Both the position numbers and the translations under genes were made by a program. Positions 1,571 through 18,756 of a DNA stretch of 23,772 bases are shown in pieces. A model generated the notes under the pieces. It worked only from the letters and a program-made list of their open reading frames with translations, searched no databases and was not told where the DNA came from. Where the stretch lies: positions 1 through 23,772 of IMG/VR virus record IMGVR_UViG_3300025120_000554; one strand, written 5' to 3'. How positions within the stretch are numbered: position 1 is the stretch's first letter; each line of letters begins with the position of its first letter. Origin of the DNA: a virus.

Positions 1571-3055
1571 ATGGAAAAAATAGTAATAGTTGGAGCCGGT
1601 GTAGCAGGTGTTAATGCTGCCACTAAATTAGTTGATAATGGATATGATGGAAGTCATATTACTATTATTGATATGGGTAATGATCCTTATAACCGTAAAC
1701 CTGAGGAAGTAATGACAGGTTTTATGGGAGCAGGTGGCTGGAGCGATGGTAAACTTACATACCATACTTCAATAGGTGGTCATTTAACTAAGTATACGGG
1801 TGATGAAAAGGCAATGGAGTTAATGGATCAAGTGATTAACAACTTTAAACGCTTCCACCCAAAACCAGATGAAGTACAATGTTCTAATCCTGTAGCCGAA
1901 CCAGATTTTATCAAACCATATTTTGGCCTCCGTTTATTCCCAGTTTGGCACGTAGGTACAGATTATTTACATGAAATTGGTAAAAATTGGTATGATTATC
2001 TTTGTGATAAAGGTGTTAATTTTATATGGAATACTAAAGTTACATCTATAAAATTTGACACTCAAGTAGCTAAATTTGAAGGTGGAGAACTTAATTATGA
2101 TACACTTATATTTGGTGTAGGTAAATCGGGAATTGATTTTGGTAAGCAACTAGCAGAACAATATGAATTACCAACTGAACCTAAACCGGTTCAAATTGGT
2201 GTACGTTTTGAAGCACCACAAAAGCACTTCCAAAAACTTATTGATGTAAGTTATGATTTCAAATTATATCGTAAGTTTGAGGATGAGGGTGTATCACTTC
2301 GTTCATTTTGCACTAACAATAATGCAGCATATGTAGCACTTGAAGAAACATATGGTGATTATAGCTATAATGGTCATGCTAAAAAAGACGAAGCATATCG
2401 CAACGATATGACGAATTTTGGTATTTTAATGGAAGTTAAGGGCATTGATAAACCATTTGATTGGTCCCGTGAATTAGTCTCTAAGGTAAATAAAATGGAT
2501 ATTGTATCCGGTGAGGGTAGAGGAGGGAAAAAAGCAATAGGTCGTTTTCAAGATAAATACAAAGCAGGTCTTTATTATAGTCCTTCATATAAAGATAAAA
2601 CACTTACATCTGAAGGTGATTGGGTTAAAGCACATTATATCAATGAAAAGGGTCTCCAAGAAGTAAAAGATGCATTTAAAGGATATTTTCAATATATTGA
2701 AGATTTTATTGAGGATATGAAAAAAGTATTTCCAACACTTGGGGATGATTGGGGAATTTATGTACCTGAGGTAAAATATTTATCACCTGAACCCCTTGTA
2801 AATTATCAAGACTTGAGTTTAACTACATATCCTAATGTACACTTTGTGGGTGATGCATTAAGTGCTAGAGGCATTACAGTATCGGGGGCACAAGGTACTT
2901 TAGTAGCAGAACAAATATTATTGTTGCAAAAAGAAGTAAATGATTTTTTAAATGACCCCGTTAATAACCAAGAATCTTGGGAAATGGGAGATACACATGA
3001 GTATATTATGGGAGGATTAACAATGCCCAAAGAAAATACTAATAAATTAAAATAA
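1571..3055 (+). CDS. FAD-dependent dehydrogenase (COG2509-like oxidoreductase)
   Basis: The 494-aa protein opens with KIVIVGAGVAGVNAA, a dinucleotide-binding Rossmann loop with glycines at 8, 10 and 13. An acidic residue, D34, ends the second strand as expected for FAD ribose binding. Residues 50-62 (GFMGAGGWSDGKL) resemble the GGAGxFSDGKL signature of the uncharacterised FAD-dependent dehydrogenase family COG2509. Near residue 427, FVGDALSARG followed by SGAQGTLVAEQIL matches the C-terminal FAD-binding GD motif of these flavoproteins. Length is normal for the family. The substrate is unknown. The stop overlaps the next start as TAATG. This is not a T4 core gene, so I read it as auxiliary metabolic cargo. 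Codon use looks like that of its neighbours. Confidence 0.8.
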   Translation: MEKIVIVGAGVAGVNAATKLVDNGYDGSHITIIDMGNDPYNRKPEEVMTGFMGAGGWSDGKLTYHTSIGGHLTKYTGDEKAMELMDQVINNFKRFHPKPDEVQCSNPVAEPDFIKPYFGLRLFPVWHVGTDYLHEIGKNWYDYLCDKGVNFIWNTKVTSIKFDTQVAKFEGGELNYDTLIFGVGKSGIDFGKQLAEQYELPTEPKPVQIGVRFEAPQKHFQKLIDVSYDFKLYRKFEDEGVSLRSFCTNNNAAYVALEETYGDYSYNGHAKKDEAYRNDMTNFGILMEVKGIDKPFDWSRELVSKVNKMDIVSGEGRGGKKAIGRFQDKYKAGLYYSPSYKDKTLTSEGDWVKAHYINEKGLQEVKDAFKGYFQYIEDFIEDMKKVFPTLGDDWGIYVPEVKYLSPEPLVNYQDLSLTTYPNVHFVGDALSARGITVSGAQGTLVAEQILLLQKEVNDFLNDPVNNQESWEMGDTHEYIMGGLTMPKENTNKLK

Positions 3056-3312
3056 TGGGAAAAAGTGAAAAATGGCCTGAACCAAGGCGTATTAAAACCC
3101 CTGATGGTACAATTTTACATACATGGGATGGTAAACTCCATAATTGGGACGGCCCTGCTCTTCTACCTCAGGGTGTAAAACGGCTAAGAGAATATTATCT
3201 TTATGGTATATTCCATACTGAAGATGAATGGAAGGAAAAAAGACGAGATAGAACAGGATTACCTTGGTATAAAAATCCAGCAATGCGTGAATCAGCAAGA
3301 CAAGGAGGCTAA
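3055..3312 (+). CDS. small conserved phage protein with WDGPA motif
   Basis: The ATG at 3055 shares its A with the preceding TAA. The 85-aa product contains DGKLHNWDGPALLP followed by REYYLYGIFHTEDEWKEKR. This resembles short MORN-like 'HNWDGPA ... EYYLYG ... EEW' proteins scattered in phages, whose function is not known to me. It is charged and aromatic-rich, with no signal peptide or membrane segment. Its last codons contain AAGGAGG, a Shine-Dalgarno-like sequence for the next gene. The overlap suggests it is translated together with the FAD dehydrogenase. Confidence 0.65.
   Translation: MGKSEKWPEPRRIKTPDGTILHTWDGKLHNWDGPALLPQGVKRLREYYLYGIFHTEDEWKEKRRDRTGLPWYKNPAMRESARQGG
3302..3308 (+). 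promoter_or_regulatory. Shine-Dalgarno-like sequence fixing the start at 3314
   Basis: AAGGAGG lies five bases before the ATG at 3314. It supports this start over an in-frame upstream start at 3203. It is the clearest Shine-Dalgarno match in a window where most starts have none. Confidence 0.6.
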
Positions 3313-3313
3313 T

Positions 3314-3835
3314 ATGAAAATAGGACTTACAGGAACAATGAGTGTTGGAAAAACAACACTAGTTAAAGCTTTATCTGAAATAGAGCAATTTAAGGGTTAT
3401 ACATGCACTACAGAACGTAGCAAATATCTTAATTCATTAGGTATTCCCTTGAACCATAAAACTACTATTGAGGGTCAAACTATATTTTTAGCAGAACGCG
3501 TAACGGAATTAATGCAAGATCGTTTAATTACTGATCGTACTATTATTGATGTTATGGCATTTACAAATTGTGCTAAAATGGTTAGTGTAATTGATAGTGA
3601 TGCATTTGAAGATTATGCTAAAAGATTTATATCCCAATATGACTATATATTTTATATCTCCCCAGAAGGGATTGATATTGAAGATAATGGTGTTCGTGAA
3701 ACTGATTCTGATTATAGAAAACAAATTGATGAAGAAATTCAAAAACTTTTACTTAAACATCGCCCTATTGTTCATACTCTTAAGGGATCAACTGAAGAAC
3801 GTATTGAACAAATGATAAAAACTATTAAATTTTAA
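3314..3835 (+). CDS. AAA / NadR-type P-loop kinase-like ATPase
   Basis: This 173-aa protein starts at the ATG preceded by AAGGAGG. KIGLTGTMSVGKTTLVKAL at the N-terminus carries a Walker A loop at residues 7-15. LITDRTIIDVMAF further on matches the 'DRsxxDxxAY' motif of the AAA_28/NadR-like nucleoside or nicotinamide riboside kinase group. The rest fits a small alpha/beta kinase (YIFYISPEGIDIEDNGVRETD could be the lid region). Likely activity is phosphorylation of a nucleoside, nucleotide or NAD precursor, and the substrate is not resolved. It follows the WDGPA gene by one base and closes the cargo block. Its TAA is fused to an ATATTTAT motif. Confidence 0.7.
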   Translation: MKIGLTGTMSVGKTTLVKALSEIEQFKGYTCTTERSKYLNSLGIPLNHKTTIEGQTIFLAERVTELMQDRLITDRTIIDVMAFTNCAKMVSVIDSDAFEDYAKRFISQYDYIFYISPEGIDIEDNGVRETDSDYRKQIDEEIQKLLLKHRPIVHTLKGSTEERIEQMIKTIKF

Positions 3836-3846: not shown

Positions 3847-4161
3847 ATGAAATTATGGAAATACATTTTAGGAGCAATTGCTTTTATTGGGGGTATGCTT
3901 GCCCTTAATGCTACCTCTAAGAAAAAAGAGCAAACTAAAAAAGTTAAAGCTAACAAAGAAAAAATTAAAACGGTACAAGCTAAAACTCGTAAAGTAGAAG
4001 AAGCTAAAGTAAAGACTAAAAAGCAAATCACTGAGTCTAAAAAGAAAACTGCAACTACTAAAAAGCAAGTTAAAGATACTACAGCAGCTAAAAAAACTGT
4101 TAAAAACTTTAAAGGCAAATATCGTAAAAAAAATCAAGGCCAACCAAAAAAGAAATCATGA
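3847..4161 (+). CDS. membrane-anchored lysine-rich coiled-coil protein
   Basis: The 104-aa protein has an N-terminal hydrophobic segment, about residues 4-22 (WKYILGAIAFIGGMLAL). An extremely Lys-rich tail with Ala, Thr, Glu and Gln follows, probably a long basic helix, ending in QGQPKKKS. The layout, one N-terminal transmembrane helix and a long charged helix, resembles inner-membrane spanins, though a DNA- or RNA-binding membrane protein is also possible. Its TGA overlaps the ATG of the next gene, an exported coiled-coil protein, so the two are probably made together. No family is recognised. Confidence 0.6.
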   Translation: MKLWKYILGAIAFIGGMLALNATSKKKEQTKKVKANKEKIKTVQAKTRKVEEAKVKTKKQITESKKKTATTKKQVKDTTAAKKTVKNFKGKYRKKNQGQPKKKS

Positions 4162-4538
4162 AACATTTACTGTTAACCCTATTTTTAGGAATATCTAGTA
4201 TTTGTTATTCACAAGATACTCTTCAAATCCCTGAAGTAGAACTTGAAGAATTTTTTTTAGCTTTAGATACTCTTGAAGTTCAAGATTCACTAAAATCTAG
4301 TATAATCCTAGATTTAGAAAGAACTATAAAATTACATGAACTACTTGCTAAACAAGATAGTTTAGTTATAAAGTTTAAAGATGAAGAAATTGTTTTATTA
4401 AATGAACAAATTCAACTTCATTTAGATAGATTAGATCAAGTAGATAAATGGTATAACAAACCATCTGTAGGGATAGCTGCGGGATTTTTAAGTACTGTAA
4501 TTTTAATTCAAGCACTTGATTATACACTCCCTGAATGA
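4158..4538 (+). CDS. exported coiled-coil protein with signal peptide and C-terminal membrane segment
   Basis: The 126-aa product starts MKHLLLTLFLGISSICYSQ, a typical flavobacterial signal peptide with likely cleavage around YSQ. A cysteine at residue 16 does not sit in a convincing lipobox. Residues about 28-95 form acidic heptad-like helices (LERTIKLHELLAKQ, EEIVLLNEQIQLHLDRL). After KWYNKPSVG, residues about 104-121 (IAAGFLSTVILIQALDY) could span a membrane. The gene overlaps both neighbours by four bases (ATGA). With the preceding membrane protein it may form a spanin-like or holin-like envelope pair. In T4 the place before gp17 belongs to the small terminase, which this clearly is not. 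Confidence 0.6.
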   Translation: MKHLLLTLFLGISSICYSQDTLQIPEVELEEFFLALDTLEVQDSLKSSIILDLERTIKLHELLAKQDSLVIKFKDEEIVLLNEQIQLHLDRLDQVDKWYNKPSVGIAAGFLSTVILIQALDYTLPE

Positions 4539-6106
4539 GTGATCTAAAACAGATAATAAGACAAGAGTACCTTAAATGTGCTCAGGATCCTATCCACTTT
4601 ATGAAAAAGTACTGTATGATCCAGCACCCCCAAAGAGGTAGAATTAATTTTCATCTTTATCCTTTTCAAGAAAAAGTACTTAAATTAGTTCAAGAAAACC
4701 CTTATTCAATTATTCTTAAATCTAGACAGTTAGGTATTTCTACTTTATCCGCTGGATATTCTTTATGGATGATGACTTTTCATAAAGATAAAAATATTCT
4801 TTGTATTGCTACAAAGCAGGAAACTGCTAAAAACATGGTTACAAAGGTTAAATTTATGTATGAAAATCTACCTTCATGGCTAAAAGTAGATTACGAAGAA
4901 AACAATAAACTAACTCTTAGATTAGCTAATGGTTCCCAAATAAAAGCTACTTCAGCATCAAGTGATGCTGGTAGATCAGAAGCAGTTTCCCTTCTATTAA
5001 TTGATGAGGCCGCATTTATTGAAAATATTGGTGAGATTTGGGCTTCTGCCCAACAAACCCTTGCTACTGGTGGTGGTTGTATAGCATTATCTACTCCTTA
5101 TGGTACTGGTAATTGGTTTCACCAAACATGGAGTAGAGCTGAAGCTAAAGAAAACGACTTTTTACCTATTAAACTTCCTTGGTATGTTCACCCCGAACGA
5201 GACCAAATTTGGAGAGATAGACAAGATGAATTGCTAGGAGATCCTAGAATGGCAGCACAAGAATGTGATTGTGATTTTAGTACTTCGGGTGATGTTGTAT
5301 TTTATCCGGAATACATGGAGTTTATAGAAAAGACTACTATTAGAGAACCTCTTGAAAGGAGAGGAGTAGATCAAAATTTATGGATTTGGGAACCTGCAGA
5401 TTATACTAGATCATATATGATATCAGCTGACGTAGCTAGGGGAGATGGTAAAGACTATTCTGCATTTCACATATTTGATATTGAAAATGCCACCCAAGTA
5501 GGTGAATATAAGGGACAGGTAGGAACTAAAGACTTTGGAAATATTCTTACTGCAATTGCTACTGAGTATAATAATGCATTACTTGTAGTTGAAAATGCAA
5601 ATATTGGTTGGAGTACGATTCAAACTATAATTGAAAAAGGTTATCAAAATTTATATTATTCCCCTAAAGCGGATAATGTTAATGTAGAATCATACATTCA
5701 AAACTATGAAAATAATTCTAGTATGACTGCGGGTTTTACTATGTCTAGTAGAACTCGTCCTATGGTTATTGGTAAATTCCAAGAATATGTTAGTGATAAA
5801 GGAGTTACAATACAATCAAAACGTTTGGTTGAAGAAATGAAAACTTTTATTTGGAAGTATGGTCGAGCTGAAGCTCAAATAGGGTATAATGATGACCTAG
5901 TTATGAGTTTTGGTATAGGCCTTTATGTGAGGGATACCGCACTTAAATTTAGACAACACGGATTAGATGTTACAAAAGCAGCTTTAGGATCTTTTAACAA
6001 AAGCACAGTTAATTATCAAGGAGCATATTTTTCTACAGGCAAAGATAACCCCTATCATATGGATAATGGAAAAGGGGGGACTGAGGACTTTAGTTGGATT
6101 CTGTAA
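4535..6106 (+). CDS. 17: large terminase subunit, gp17-like
   Basis: The 523-aa protein is the DNA-packaging motor ATPase and headful nuclease of T4-like phages. The ATPase domain has a variant Walker A, KSRQLGIST at 62-70, Walker B LLLIDEAA at 153-160, and the coupling motif STPYG at 186-190. The RNase-H-like nuclease domain has ISADVARGDGKD (D299), VVENANIG (E353) and YNDDLVMS (D453/D454), matching the catalytic D-E-D set of T4 gp17. It is shorter than T4 gp17 (about 610 aa) but close to other marine T4-like relatives. Its ATG overlaps the previous TGA. The TAA is fused to an ATATTTAT motif that precedes the portal gene. Confidence 0.97.
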   Translation: MSDLKQIIRQEYLKCAQDPIHFMKKYCMIQHPQRGRINFHLYPFQEKVLKLVQENPYSIILKSRQLGISTLSAGYSLWMMTFHKDKNILCIATKQETAKNMVTKVKFMYENLPSWLKVDYEENNKLTLRLANGSQIKATSASSDAGRSEAVSLLLIDEAAFIENIGEIWASAQQTLATGGGCIALSTPYGTGNWFHQTWSRAEAKENDFLPIKLPWYVHPERDQIWRDRQDELLGDPRMAAQECDCDFSTSGDVVFYPEYMEFIEKTTIREPLERRGVDQNLWIWEPADYTRSYMISADVARGDGKDYSAFHIFDIENATQVGEYKGQVGTKDFGNILTAIATEYNNALLVVENANIGWSTIQTIIEKGYQNLYYSPKADNVNVESYIQNYENNSSMTAGFTMSSRTRPMVIGKFQEYVSDKGVTIQSKRLVEEMKTFIWKYGRAEAQIGYNDDLVMSFGIGLYVRDTALKFRQHGLDVTKAALGSFNKSTVNYQGAYFSTGKDNPYHMDNGKGGTEDFSWIL

Positions 6107-16947: not shown

Positions 16948-17093
16948 TGAACAAGGTAGTTCCATTAAAAAATTTATCTAAAATAATAGTAACAGAAAAT
17001 TGTGGTGATACTGTAACTGTTATAATGGTTAACTCCAACATTACAGTTTCAAAAATCAATAATCAAGTAAATATAACTAAGTGTGGGTCGTAA
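16947..17093 (+). CDS. small beta-rich protein overlapping the collagen-like fibre gene
   Basis: This 48-aa frame begins MNKVVPLKNLSKIIVTENCG at the ATG that shares a base with the previous TAA. It ends NQVNITKCGS at 17093. It overlaps the GTG start of the following gene (17083) by 11 bases. Its repeated short strands (IIVTENCGDTVTVIMV, NITVSKIN) resemble in style the N-terminal strands of the next protein (KVIITDNICNKSVTIEL), so it may be a split or duplicated N-terminal domain. Tight overlap on both sides supports that it is real. Confidence 0.55.
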   Translation: MNKVVPLKNLSKIIVTENCGDTVTVIMVNSNITVSKINNQVNITKCGS

Positions 17094-18756
17094 CTCAATT
17101 AACATATCAGACCAACCAAACCAAATCATTCTACAAGATCAGAATGAAAAGGTTATTATTACAGATAATATTTGTAATAAGTCTGTTACTATTGAATTAC
17201 CCCAAACAAACTTAATTGTCCAGGAGGAAAATACTAAAGTAGTAACCATAAATGAGGGTGCTTCAGGTAAACCTGGTACCTCAGGTACTTCGGGTTCAAG
17301 TGGTACTTCAGGTTCTTCGGGCACTAGTGGTTCTTCTGGCACTTCAGGCACTTCAGGATCAAGTGGTACAAGTGGATCATCAGGATCATCAGGATCATCA
17401 GGATCTTCAGGTTCAAGTGGCACTTCAGGCACTTCAGGATCAAGTGGTACAAGTGGATCATCAGGATCATCAGGATCATCAGGTTCCTCAGGCACCTCAG
17501 GTACTAGTGGTTCTTCTGGTACTTCAGGTTCTTCAGGGACCTCAGGCTCAAGTGGTACCTCAGGCACTTCAGGCTCTTCAGGTAGCTCAGGCTCTTCAGG
17601 TTCTTCAGGTACCTCAGGCTCTTCAGGTTCTTCAGGTACCTCAGGCTCTTCAGGCTCCTCAGGTACCTCAGGCTCAAGTGGTTCTTCTGGAACATCAGGT
17701 TCTAGTGGCTCTTCAGGCACCTCGGGTTCAAGTGGTACTAGTGGAATTGATGGTGCGGATTTAATATTACCTAGTAAAACTTATTTATTTGCGGGGACAG
17801 GTGGAAATCCTCCTTCTGGAGATATTACATCGAATAGTACTACTCCGGGTAATATAACTCTTATTAGGATTCATATAACTGATAATGGGGGTACTTCTCA
17901 TTTATCTTTTCTTGAAGATTTAGATGCTTTTAATAAAGGTATTATAAAAATAGTTAATGGAGGTAATATAGACCAATGGAACATTACAAGTGCCAATTCT
18001 GACATTAGTGAAACATTTTACAATTTAACAGTATCTTATGTAGAAGGAGACAATGCTTCTTATAGTATTGGAAGTTCTTCTAATGTAACTATATTAATAG
18101 GAGATAATTTTGGTACATCTGGTACTTCAGGCAGCTCCGGAACTTCAGGTGTTGATGGAGCTACAGTCTCAAACCCCGAAGCATTTAGGGTTATAAGATC
18201 TACTGGAACTACATCAGGTTTATTAGCTGAAGAAAATTTAAGATTTACTGGATCTTTATTATCTGTAACGGGTAGTGTACAAGCCCCTACAGGATCATTT
18301 GAACTTTTAGTAGCTAGAGGTCATATAATACCTGATGGTGATTTATTGTATAATTTAGGAGATGATAGTAACTATTTCAACACAGCTTCCATAGGCCATA
18401 TTAGGACTTTTAATTCTACAATTGAATTTGTAAATTCTACTACTAAGGCTAAAGAGGCATCTTTAACAGCTACATCTGCAGGAATATCAGTAAAAGGCGC
18501 TTCAAATCAATTAACATCCCTTTCAGGTTCAGATGGTATATTTACAGGAAGACTAGGTGCAGCATCTTTTAGGGGGCAAGTAAATGGACAAAATGATGTA
18601 ATGCTTATTACTACATCCTCTGCAACTCGATATAAAATCACCAGTGAAGGTATTCCTGTATTTACAGATTTACATCCTAATTCACAGACCCAACCTACCC
18701 CAATAGAAGGCGGGATGTATTATGGTAGTGGAAGTTTTTATTTGGGGATAGAATAA
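17083..18756 (+). CDS. collagen-like Gly-Ser/Thr-Ser repeat fibre protein
   Basis: The 557-aa protein starts at GTG, because no ATG lies between 17083 and the conserved N-terminal strands. Residues about 1-60 are short beta strands. About 61-222 are roughly 55 consecutive G-[S/T]-S triplets, a collagen-like register with almost no proline, ending GTSGIDGAD. A globular region of about 120 residues follows, then a second short GTSGTSGSSGTSGVDGA segment near residue 345. The C-terminal domain (about 360-557) has the LGDDSNYFNTASIG style of phage tail fibres and ends GGMYYGSGSFYLGIE. It is probably a trimeric fibre, with the collagen-like run as a shaft and the tip for receptor contact. No intramolecular chaperone is recognised. 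Confidence 0.8.
   Translation: MGRNSINISDQPNQIILQDQNEKVIITDNICNKSVTIELPQTNLIVQEENTKVVTINEGASGKPGTSGTSGSSGTSGSSGTSGSSGTSGTSGSSGTSGSSGSSGSSGSSGSSGTSGTSGSSGTSGSSGSSGSSGSSGTSGTSGSSGTSGSSGTSGSSGTSGTSGSSGSSGSSGSSGTSGSSGSSGTSGSSGSSGTSGSSGSSGTSGSSGSSGTSGSSGTSGIDGADLILPSKTYLFAGTGGNPPSGDITSNSTTPGNITLIRIHITDNGGTSHLSFLEDLDAFNKGIIKIVNGGNIDQWNITSANSDISETFYNLTVSYVEGDNASYSIGSSSNVTILIGDNFGTSGTSGSSGTSGVDGATVSNPEAFRVIRSTGTTSGLLAEENLRFTGSLLSVTGSVQAPTGSFELLVARGHIIPDGDLLYNLGDDSNYFNTASIGHIRTFNSTIEFVNSTTKAKEASLTATSAGISVKGASNQLTSLSGSDGIFTGRLGAASFRGQVNGQNDVMLITTSSATRYKITSEGIPVFTDLHPNSQTQPTPIEGGMYYGSGSFYLGIE
17337..17402 (+). repeat. 66-bp perfect direct repeat, copy 1
   Basis: This 66-base block is identical to 17418-17483, an offset of 81 bases (nine repeat units). 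The flanking bases differ on both sides. Identity at silent positions implies a recent duplication or gene conversion. Confidence 0.9.
17418..17483 (+). repeat. 66-bp perfect direct repeat, copy 2
   Basis: Second copy of the block at 17337-17402. The reading frame is preserved because the offset is a multiple of nine. Confidence 0.9.
17590..17670 (+). repeat. 27-bp tandem triplication in the collagen-like array
   Basis: Units 17590-17616 and 17617-17643 are identical. The third, 17644-17670, differs at two bases. Each encodes three G-x-S triplets ending in GTACCTCA. Confidence 0.9.

Follow-up and report, generated by a model that had tools for sequence, protein, structure and literature searches.

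A putative lipid-free, spanin-like gene pair upstream of the large terminase gene in a T4-like phage of Bacteroidota

Two-component spanins comprise an o-spanin, an outer-membrane lipoprotein with a lipobox ([LVI][ASTVI][GAS]C), and an i-spanin, a type II (N-in, C-out) inner-membrane protein. Their genes are adjacent, overlapping or embedded, and linkage to holin and endolysin genes is common but not obligatory; in T7, the Rz/Rz1 genes (18.5/18.7) sit just before the gene for the large terminase subunit (TerL). Unimolecular spanins (u-spanins) of the T1 gp11 type combine an N-terminal lipoylation signal with a C-terminal transmembrane segment. Outer-membrane disruption by phages that lack a lipoprotein spanin is still unexplained. 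By lipobox-based criteria, 91 of the 677 genomes surveyed in 2018 had no spanin (PMC6139136), including those of the Croceibacter phages P2559S and P2559Y, Rhodothermus phage RM378, and Bacteroides phage B124-14 (PMC6139136); among the untested possibilities named by Kongari et al. (2018) are a protein with a C-terminal TMD and one located in the outer membrane. A lipobox-filtered survey from 2025 reported only unimolecular spanins for phages of Bacteroidetes (PMC12596118); in flavophages, such spanins are annotated in Nekkels and Ingeline (PMC8776804). The literature searched, which covers subscription journals thinly, yielded no account of a two-component spanin that is lipid-free.

The window analyzed here is the whole 23,772-nt stretch of DNA from an uncultured marine phage in IMG/VR record IMGVR_UViG_3300025120_000554 (positions 1 to 23,772), in which two small genes, A and B, lie directly upstream of TerL (Table 1). 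Judging from sequence and gene context, A and B are probably a non-canonical two-gene lysis pair, spanin-like in kind, and the phage that carries them is T4-like and infects Bacteroidota, most likely Flavobacteriia. This reading rests on the obligate pairing of the two genes, on a genomic slot shared with a second family of A-B pairs (family 2), and on the linkage of families 2 and 3 to holin and endolysin genes. As in lambda Rz/Rz1 and T7 18.5/18.7, the genes are small, adjacent, overlapping and late, with an N-terminal anchor in one partner and a helical exported partner, and the lysis-cassette linkage of the Rz/Rz1 type is matched by family 2. The pair differs from the lambda type in that B has no lipobox but a C-terminal hydrophobic helix (beta strands in some relatives), and in the extremely basic tail of A. 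B also resembles the T1 gp11-type u-spanins in its N-terminal export signal, periplasmic domain and C-terminal membrane helix, but it lacks a lipoylation site, is helical (the T1 gp11 family has a helix plus beta sheets), and has an obligate upstream partner.

Table 1. Features of the A-B locus and its flanks, in window positions.
Feature	Position	Strand	Description
FAD oxidoreductase	1571-3055	+	part of upstream block
85-aa protein	3055-3312	+	part of upstream block
AAA_28/thymidylate-kinase-like kinase	3314-3835	+	part of upstream block
Conserved upstream block	1571..3835	+	marks slot that family-2 phages also have
ORF A	3847..4161	+	104 aa; putative i-spanin-like partner; short N-terminal membrane segment, then Lys-rich tail
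Predicted transmembrane segment of A, residues 6-24	3862..3918	+	hydropathy; next 15 residues carry +5 net charge
ATGA overlap, A stop / B start	4158..4161	+	4 bp
ORF B	4158..4538	+	126 aa; Sec signal peptide followed by an acidic long helix and a hydrophobic helix at the C-terminus
Signal peptide of B, residues 1-18	4158..4211	+	signal peptidase I type, read from sequence; no lipobox
Long helix / predicted coiled coil of B, residues 26-99	4233..4454	+	AlphaFold pLDDT about 90; conservation
C-terminal hydrophobic helix of B, residues 102-123	4461..4526	+	hydropathy, AlphaFold
Large terminase subunit TerL, T4 gp17 type	4535..6106	+	PHROG 2, 1.3e-50; overlaps B by ATGA

ORF B (pI 4.5, net charge -11) opens with MKHLLLTLFLGISSICYSQ, followed by DTL, and has a signal peptidase I type site whose predicted cut lies before or near Q19 (ICYS before it, QDTL after). 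AlphaFold, with 48 relatives, predicts helices at residues 2-17, 26-99 (74 residues) and 102-123; the near-invariant ELEEFF-ALDT (residues 28-38) opens the long helix, and the last helix is only moderately hydrophobic. Foldseek found no match for window B among viral structure models. A lipoprotein attached through Cys16 was considered and ruled out, since this residue is preceded by SSI, outside the lipobox consensus, and a cysteine occupies the position in only 36 of the 58 family members. Across families, a consensus lipobox is missing from the cleavage site of every B protein read, and the signals of the other families end in SFSQ. Thus, B is not a canonical o-spanin or u-spanin: of the unimolecular features it has the C-terminal hydrophobic helix and not the N-terminal lipoylation signal.

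ORF A (pI 10.6, net charge +29) consists of an N-terminal part, MKLWKYILGAIAFIGGMLALNAT, and a Lys-rich tail ending in FKGKYRKK-NQGQPKKKS. It has only a weak PHROG match, to the Rz-like PHROG 89 (0.021), whereas divergent A homologues match 'Rz-like spanin' families more strongly (the A protein of L022 to PHROG 739 at 3.5e-6 and PHROG 7584 at 1.7e-4; that of L185 to PHROG 214 at 6.4e-5), all of these matches being inflated by coiled-coil composition. In 98% of window-family A proteins the positive charge after the membrane segment equals or exceeds that before it, so the positive-inside rule favors a cytoplasmic tail; the N-in/C-out charge pattern is seen in 2% of the window family versus 88% of family 2 and 100% of family 3. 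In the window, either the basic tail would be exported despite the rule, or A would be turned round, with B acting alone. The end of A (window 4130-4158) also carries an AT-hook-like GRP/GQPKKK tail, found in most but not all family members; it reads GRPKKK or RGRPSKK in many, and the GRP motif is missing from several (L010, L014, L016).

The preliminary description had recognized a membrane-anchored A and an exported coiled-coil B overlapping by 4 bp, which is borne out by the ATGA, the hydropathy profiles, the signal peptide and the AlphaFold helices. The two are also conserved as a pair: B is encoded in more than 100 IMG/VR contigs, A lies directly upstream at every locus that reaches far enough, and 58 distinct A-B pairs were recovered in the window family. 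The junction is mostly a 4-bp overlap; in a few cases the genes overlap by 1 bp or are spaced 2 bp apart. Purifying selection acts on both genes (dN/dS about 0.12 for B and 0.3-0.4 for A), and B is conserved far better than A. A search of 84,980 bacterial and archaeal genomes for the A-B pair returned one spurious match. The opposite charges of the two proteins are real and constant within the window family (+12 to +27 for the A tail and -5 to -15 for B). As the reason for pairing they find no support beyond this family: the correlation between A and B charge falls from -0.55 (raw) to -0.09 (P 0.19) once phylogeny is removed, and the homologous A-B pairs of other phages lack such opposite charges. 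Charge complementarity was accordingly rejected as a sign of A-B binding.

The pair lies in a mixed late/nucleotide-metabolism block, where the order in the window family is FAD oxidoreductase, 85-aa protein, kinase, A, B, TerL and portal, and B and TerL share a second ATGA (4535-4538). Two other window genes were noted: one encoding a 56-aa histone H1-like protein (63-233; Pfam Hc1, 1.7e-8), kept upstream in the window clade, and one encoding a protein with a long GTSGSSGTSG repeat of collagen-like composition (17083-18756). By TerL, the closest cultured relative is Flavobacterium phage immuto (60% identity), although the neighbors of its TerL differ from those in the window. The immuto genome (MW353177) encodes a pair of the second family in its lysis region, which runs from a GH19 endolysin (PHROG 181, 3e-63) and a holin through two further genes to an N-TM/coiled-coil A-like protein (45781-46131) overlapping a B-like protein with signal peptide, helix and C-terminal TM (46046-46444). 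The annotated start of the latter (46085) is wrong and removes the signal peptide, which the in-frame ATG at 46046 restores. Relatives of the immuto-type pair were found on about 80 contigs, with A/B overlaps of 59-116 bp; an apparent absence of A from six family-2 loci proved to be an artefact of requiring ATG starts.

Gene context was counted at 45 distinct loci of families 2 and 3. Twelve of these lie directly after a GH19/holin cassette (immuto belongs with these, except that two genes intervene), 13 lie after an Amidase_2 gene in large phages (with L135 a similar case at a slightly greater distance), and three after another Amidase_2 gene, besides which there are further amidase-linked loci. 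Another 12 lie before TerL, and two more are in TerL context at a contig end. The lysis genes beside these pairs include a holin (PF05105, 26.8 bits against a cut-off of 22.2) and amidases (PF01510, 3.5e-13 and 2.6e-9). In sister phages, a family-2 pair sits between the kinase and TerL, the exact slot of the window pair, within shared flanks (FAD oxidoreductase 57-75% identical to the window, small gene 36-60%, kinase 55-66%, TerL 64-78%, portal 59-68%); L185 retains only TerL, the portal and the next gene of this flank. BLASTP of window A and B against these TerL-context family-2 pairs gave no match. The window pair thus fills the place of a family-2 pair, whether as a diverged copy or as an equivalent replacement. 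One contig (G017; 105,692 bp) carries B only once, next to TerL at 3301; its GH19-holin cassette at 65,552 (L206) runs straight into another gene at the point where G020 has A-B. Within the window family itself, no holin or endolysin gene was found near A-B on the available contigs, which are fragments no longer than 81 kb, and searches of these contigs with the immuto GH19 protein, PF01510, PF13539, PF05105, PF00959 and PHROG 181, for which the control was silent, gave a single lysis-type match, an Amidase_2 domain inside a 685-aa frame in G003.

Comparison of profiles indicates that B is probably homologous between the window family and family 2 (full-length match, probability 94, E 9e-8; B controls under 1.1), part of this match being the signal peptide; ungapped shuffles of mature B gave P 0.055. 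For A, direct sequence homology between the families was not significant: the profile probability was 23, while an unrelated single-TM protein scored 51 against family-2 A, and ungapped shuffles of the A C-termini gave P 0.046, against 0.03-0.22 for controls. Given the weak A profile match and weak shuffles, the link between the families rests on synteny and architecture. The ELEEFF motif at the start of the B helix (window 4239-4256) has a counterpart in ELEQFF at the C-terminus of family-2 A, each near-invariant in its own family; the coincidence stands out against shuffles, but it involves only six residues and was spotted before being tested.

In a third group of relatives (L184, L186-L204), the C-terminal helix of B is replaced by a segment ending GGYGFVVEYKIF, and the pairs with readable upstream sequence mostly follow holin-like genes and Amidase_2. 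AlphaFold predicts for this beta-type B a helix at residues 30-94 and strands at 99-109, 112-126, 129-138 and 141-151. Among 350,542 PDB chains, the top four Foldseek matches were AtaA/Hia membrane anchors (E 9e-3 to 9.5e-2, probability 0.97-1.00), which on a second look with VIA had Z scores of about 5-6, not above unrelated rows. The trimeric autotransporter anchors (Hia, AtaA, YadA) share with the beta-type proteins a long helix followed by four beta strands, at E 9e-3 at best, and differ from window B, which has a helix in place of the strands. The models therefore suggest an outer-membrane anchor for the beta-type B of the third group only.

If A and B are a lysis pair, A would be an inner-membrane protein, and B would be exported by Sec, lose its signal peptide and expose its long helix to the periplasm, with its own C-terminal hydrophobic helix as the anchor. 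The intact cell wall would cage the pair and keep it inactive until holin and endolysin strip the wall, whereupon collapse of the helical complexes would either bring the inner and outer membranes together or rupture them. An A-B complex across the envelope is plausible; we infer binding of A to B, a function of the window pair equivalent to that of family 2, and the membrane that the C-terminus of B enters. The spanin-like lysis pair of the preliminary description is supported indirectly, through a second A-B family found both in the same pre-TerL slot and, elsewhere, after holin and endolysin genes, but not in canonical form, as B has no lipobox. Other observations that speak against a lysis pair are the charge pattern of window-family A, the non-significant A match, the share of the signal peptide in the B match, and the lack of a lysis gene near A-B on the window-family fragments.

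Several of these observations could instead indicate that B alone is the effector, acting like a u-spanin without lipid, with its ELEEFF segment at the outer membrane and its C-terminal helix in the inner membrane, while A regulates or times it. The signal peptide and C-terminal TM of B amount to the u-spanin layout minus the lipobox, B is far better conserved than A, the charges of window-family A favor a C-in orientation, and unimolecular spanins are the only type reported for Bacteroidetes phages in the 2025 survey (PMC12596118). Since A is never lost, and A of families 2 and 3 resembles a normal N-in i-spanin, this arrangement is considered unlikely. Some other late function of the two membrane proteins, for instance in superinfection exclusion or, as virion components, in envelope penetration, would suit the mixed character of the surrounding block, but it leaves unexplained why related pairs are linked to GH19 and amidase genes and is rated slightly less likely still.

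A role in DNA packaging or head assembly, in which the basic, AT-hook-like tail of A (GRPKKK) binds DNA at the membrane and stands in for the small terminase, appears very improbable. The location of the pair immediately before TerL, which it overlaps by 4 bp, the GRPKKK/RGRPSKK tail of many members, and the search for gp16-type small terminases (PF11053), which came up empty for the window, immuto, Mel-JY01 and three related contigs and was silent in the control genomes too, would all be compatible with it; among the remaining window ORFs that were tested, the matches were to head proteins and PhoH, with no small terminase. Against it stand the export signal of B, the GRP motif missing from some members, the equivalent pairs in lysis cassettes away from TerL, and a structural gene of about 370-690 aa inserted between B and TerL in one clade (L034, L038, L045, L066 and others), which indicates that A-B is independent of contact with TerL. 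The earlier suggestion that the pair replaces or displaces the small terminase is not supported: both proteins carry membrane or export signals and the pair moves independently of TerL.

Under the preferred reading of A and B as a lysis pair, it can be proposed, tentatively and at somewhat less than even likelihood, that such pairs form a distinct two-component spanin class of Bacteroidota phages, in which the outer-membrane-side partner is lipid-free, Sec-exported and held C-terminally, by a beta anchor resembling that of trimeric autotransporters in some and by a hydrophobic helix in others, including the window. If so, surveys requiring a lipobox would miss all such pairs. Immuto and P2559S are cultured candidates for a direct test of a lipid-free two-gene pair.

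Comparable arrangements were noted in other phages. In P2559S (NC_018276, 27300-28065; L216), the gene directly following the endolysin is an N-TM/coiled-coil ORF. It overlaps a second, unannotated ORF, open from 27499, of which GenBank has only a 3' fragment; the product has a signal peptide, then a coiled coil, and at its C-terminus beta-like strands that end in GGRLSFAIW. P2559Y (NC_023614, 22998-23621; L217) and Cellulophaga phage phi14:2 (gp073; L212, 4488-5066) each encode, directly after the endolysin, a single protein that has a membrane helix at its N-terminus and a beta-like segment at its C-terminus; these are possibly reversed-polarity unimolecular spanins with an outer-membrane beta anchor. 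Microcystis phage Mel-JY01 (PP395634, 13800-15759) has an A-like/B-like pair directly before TerL, for which no B relatives were found in IMG/VR; its TerL is closest to those of Bacteroidota phages among those compared and its B-like signal is of flavobacterial type (IFSQ), and the recorded cyanobacterial host may be wrong. A further A-like/B-like pair lies upstream of TerL in a 484-kb uncultured phage (LR756508.1, 3580-4295; L029), where the B-like protein matches PHROG 937 'hemolysin' (2.8e-5).
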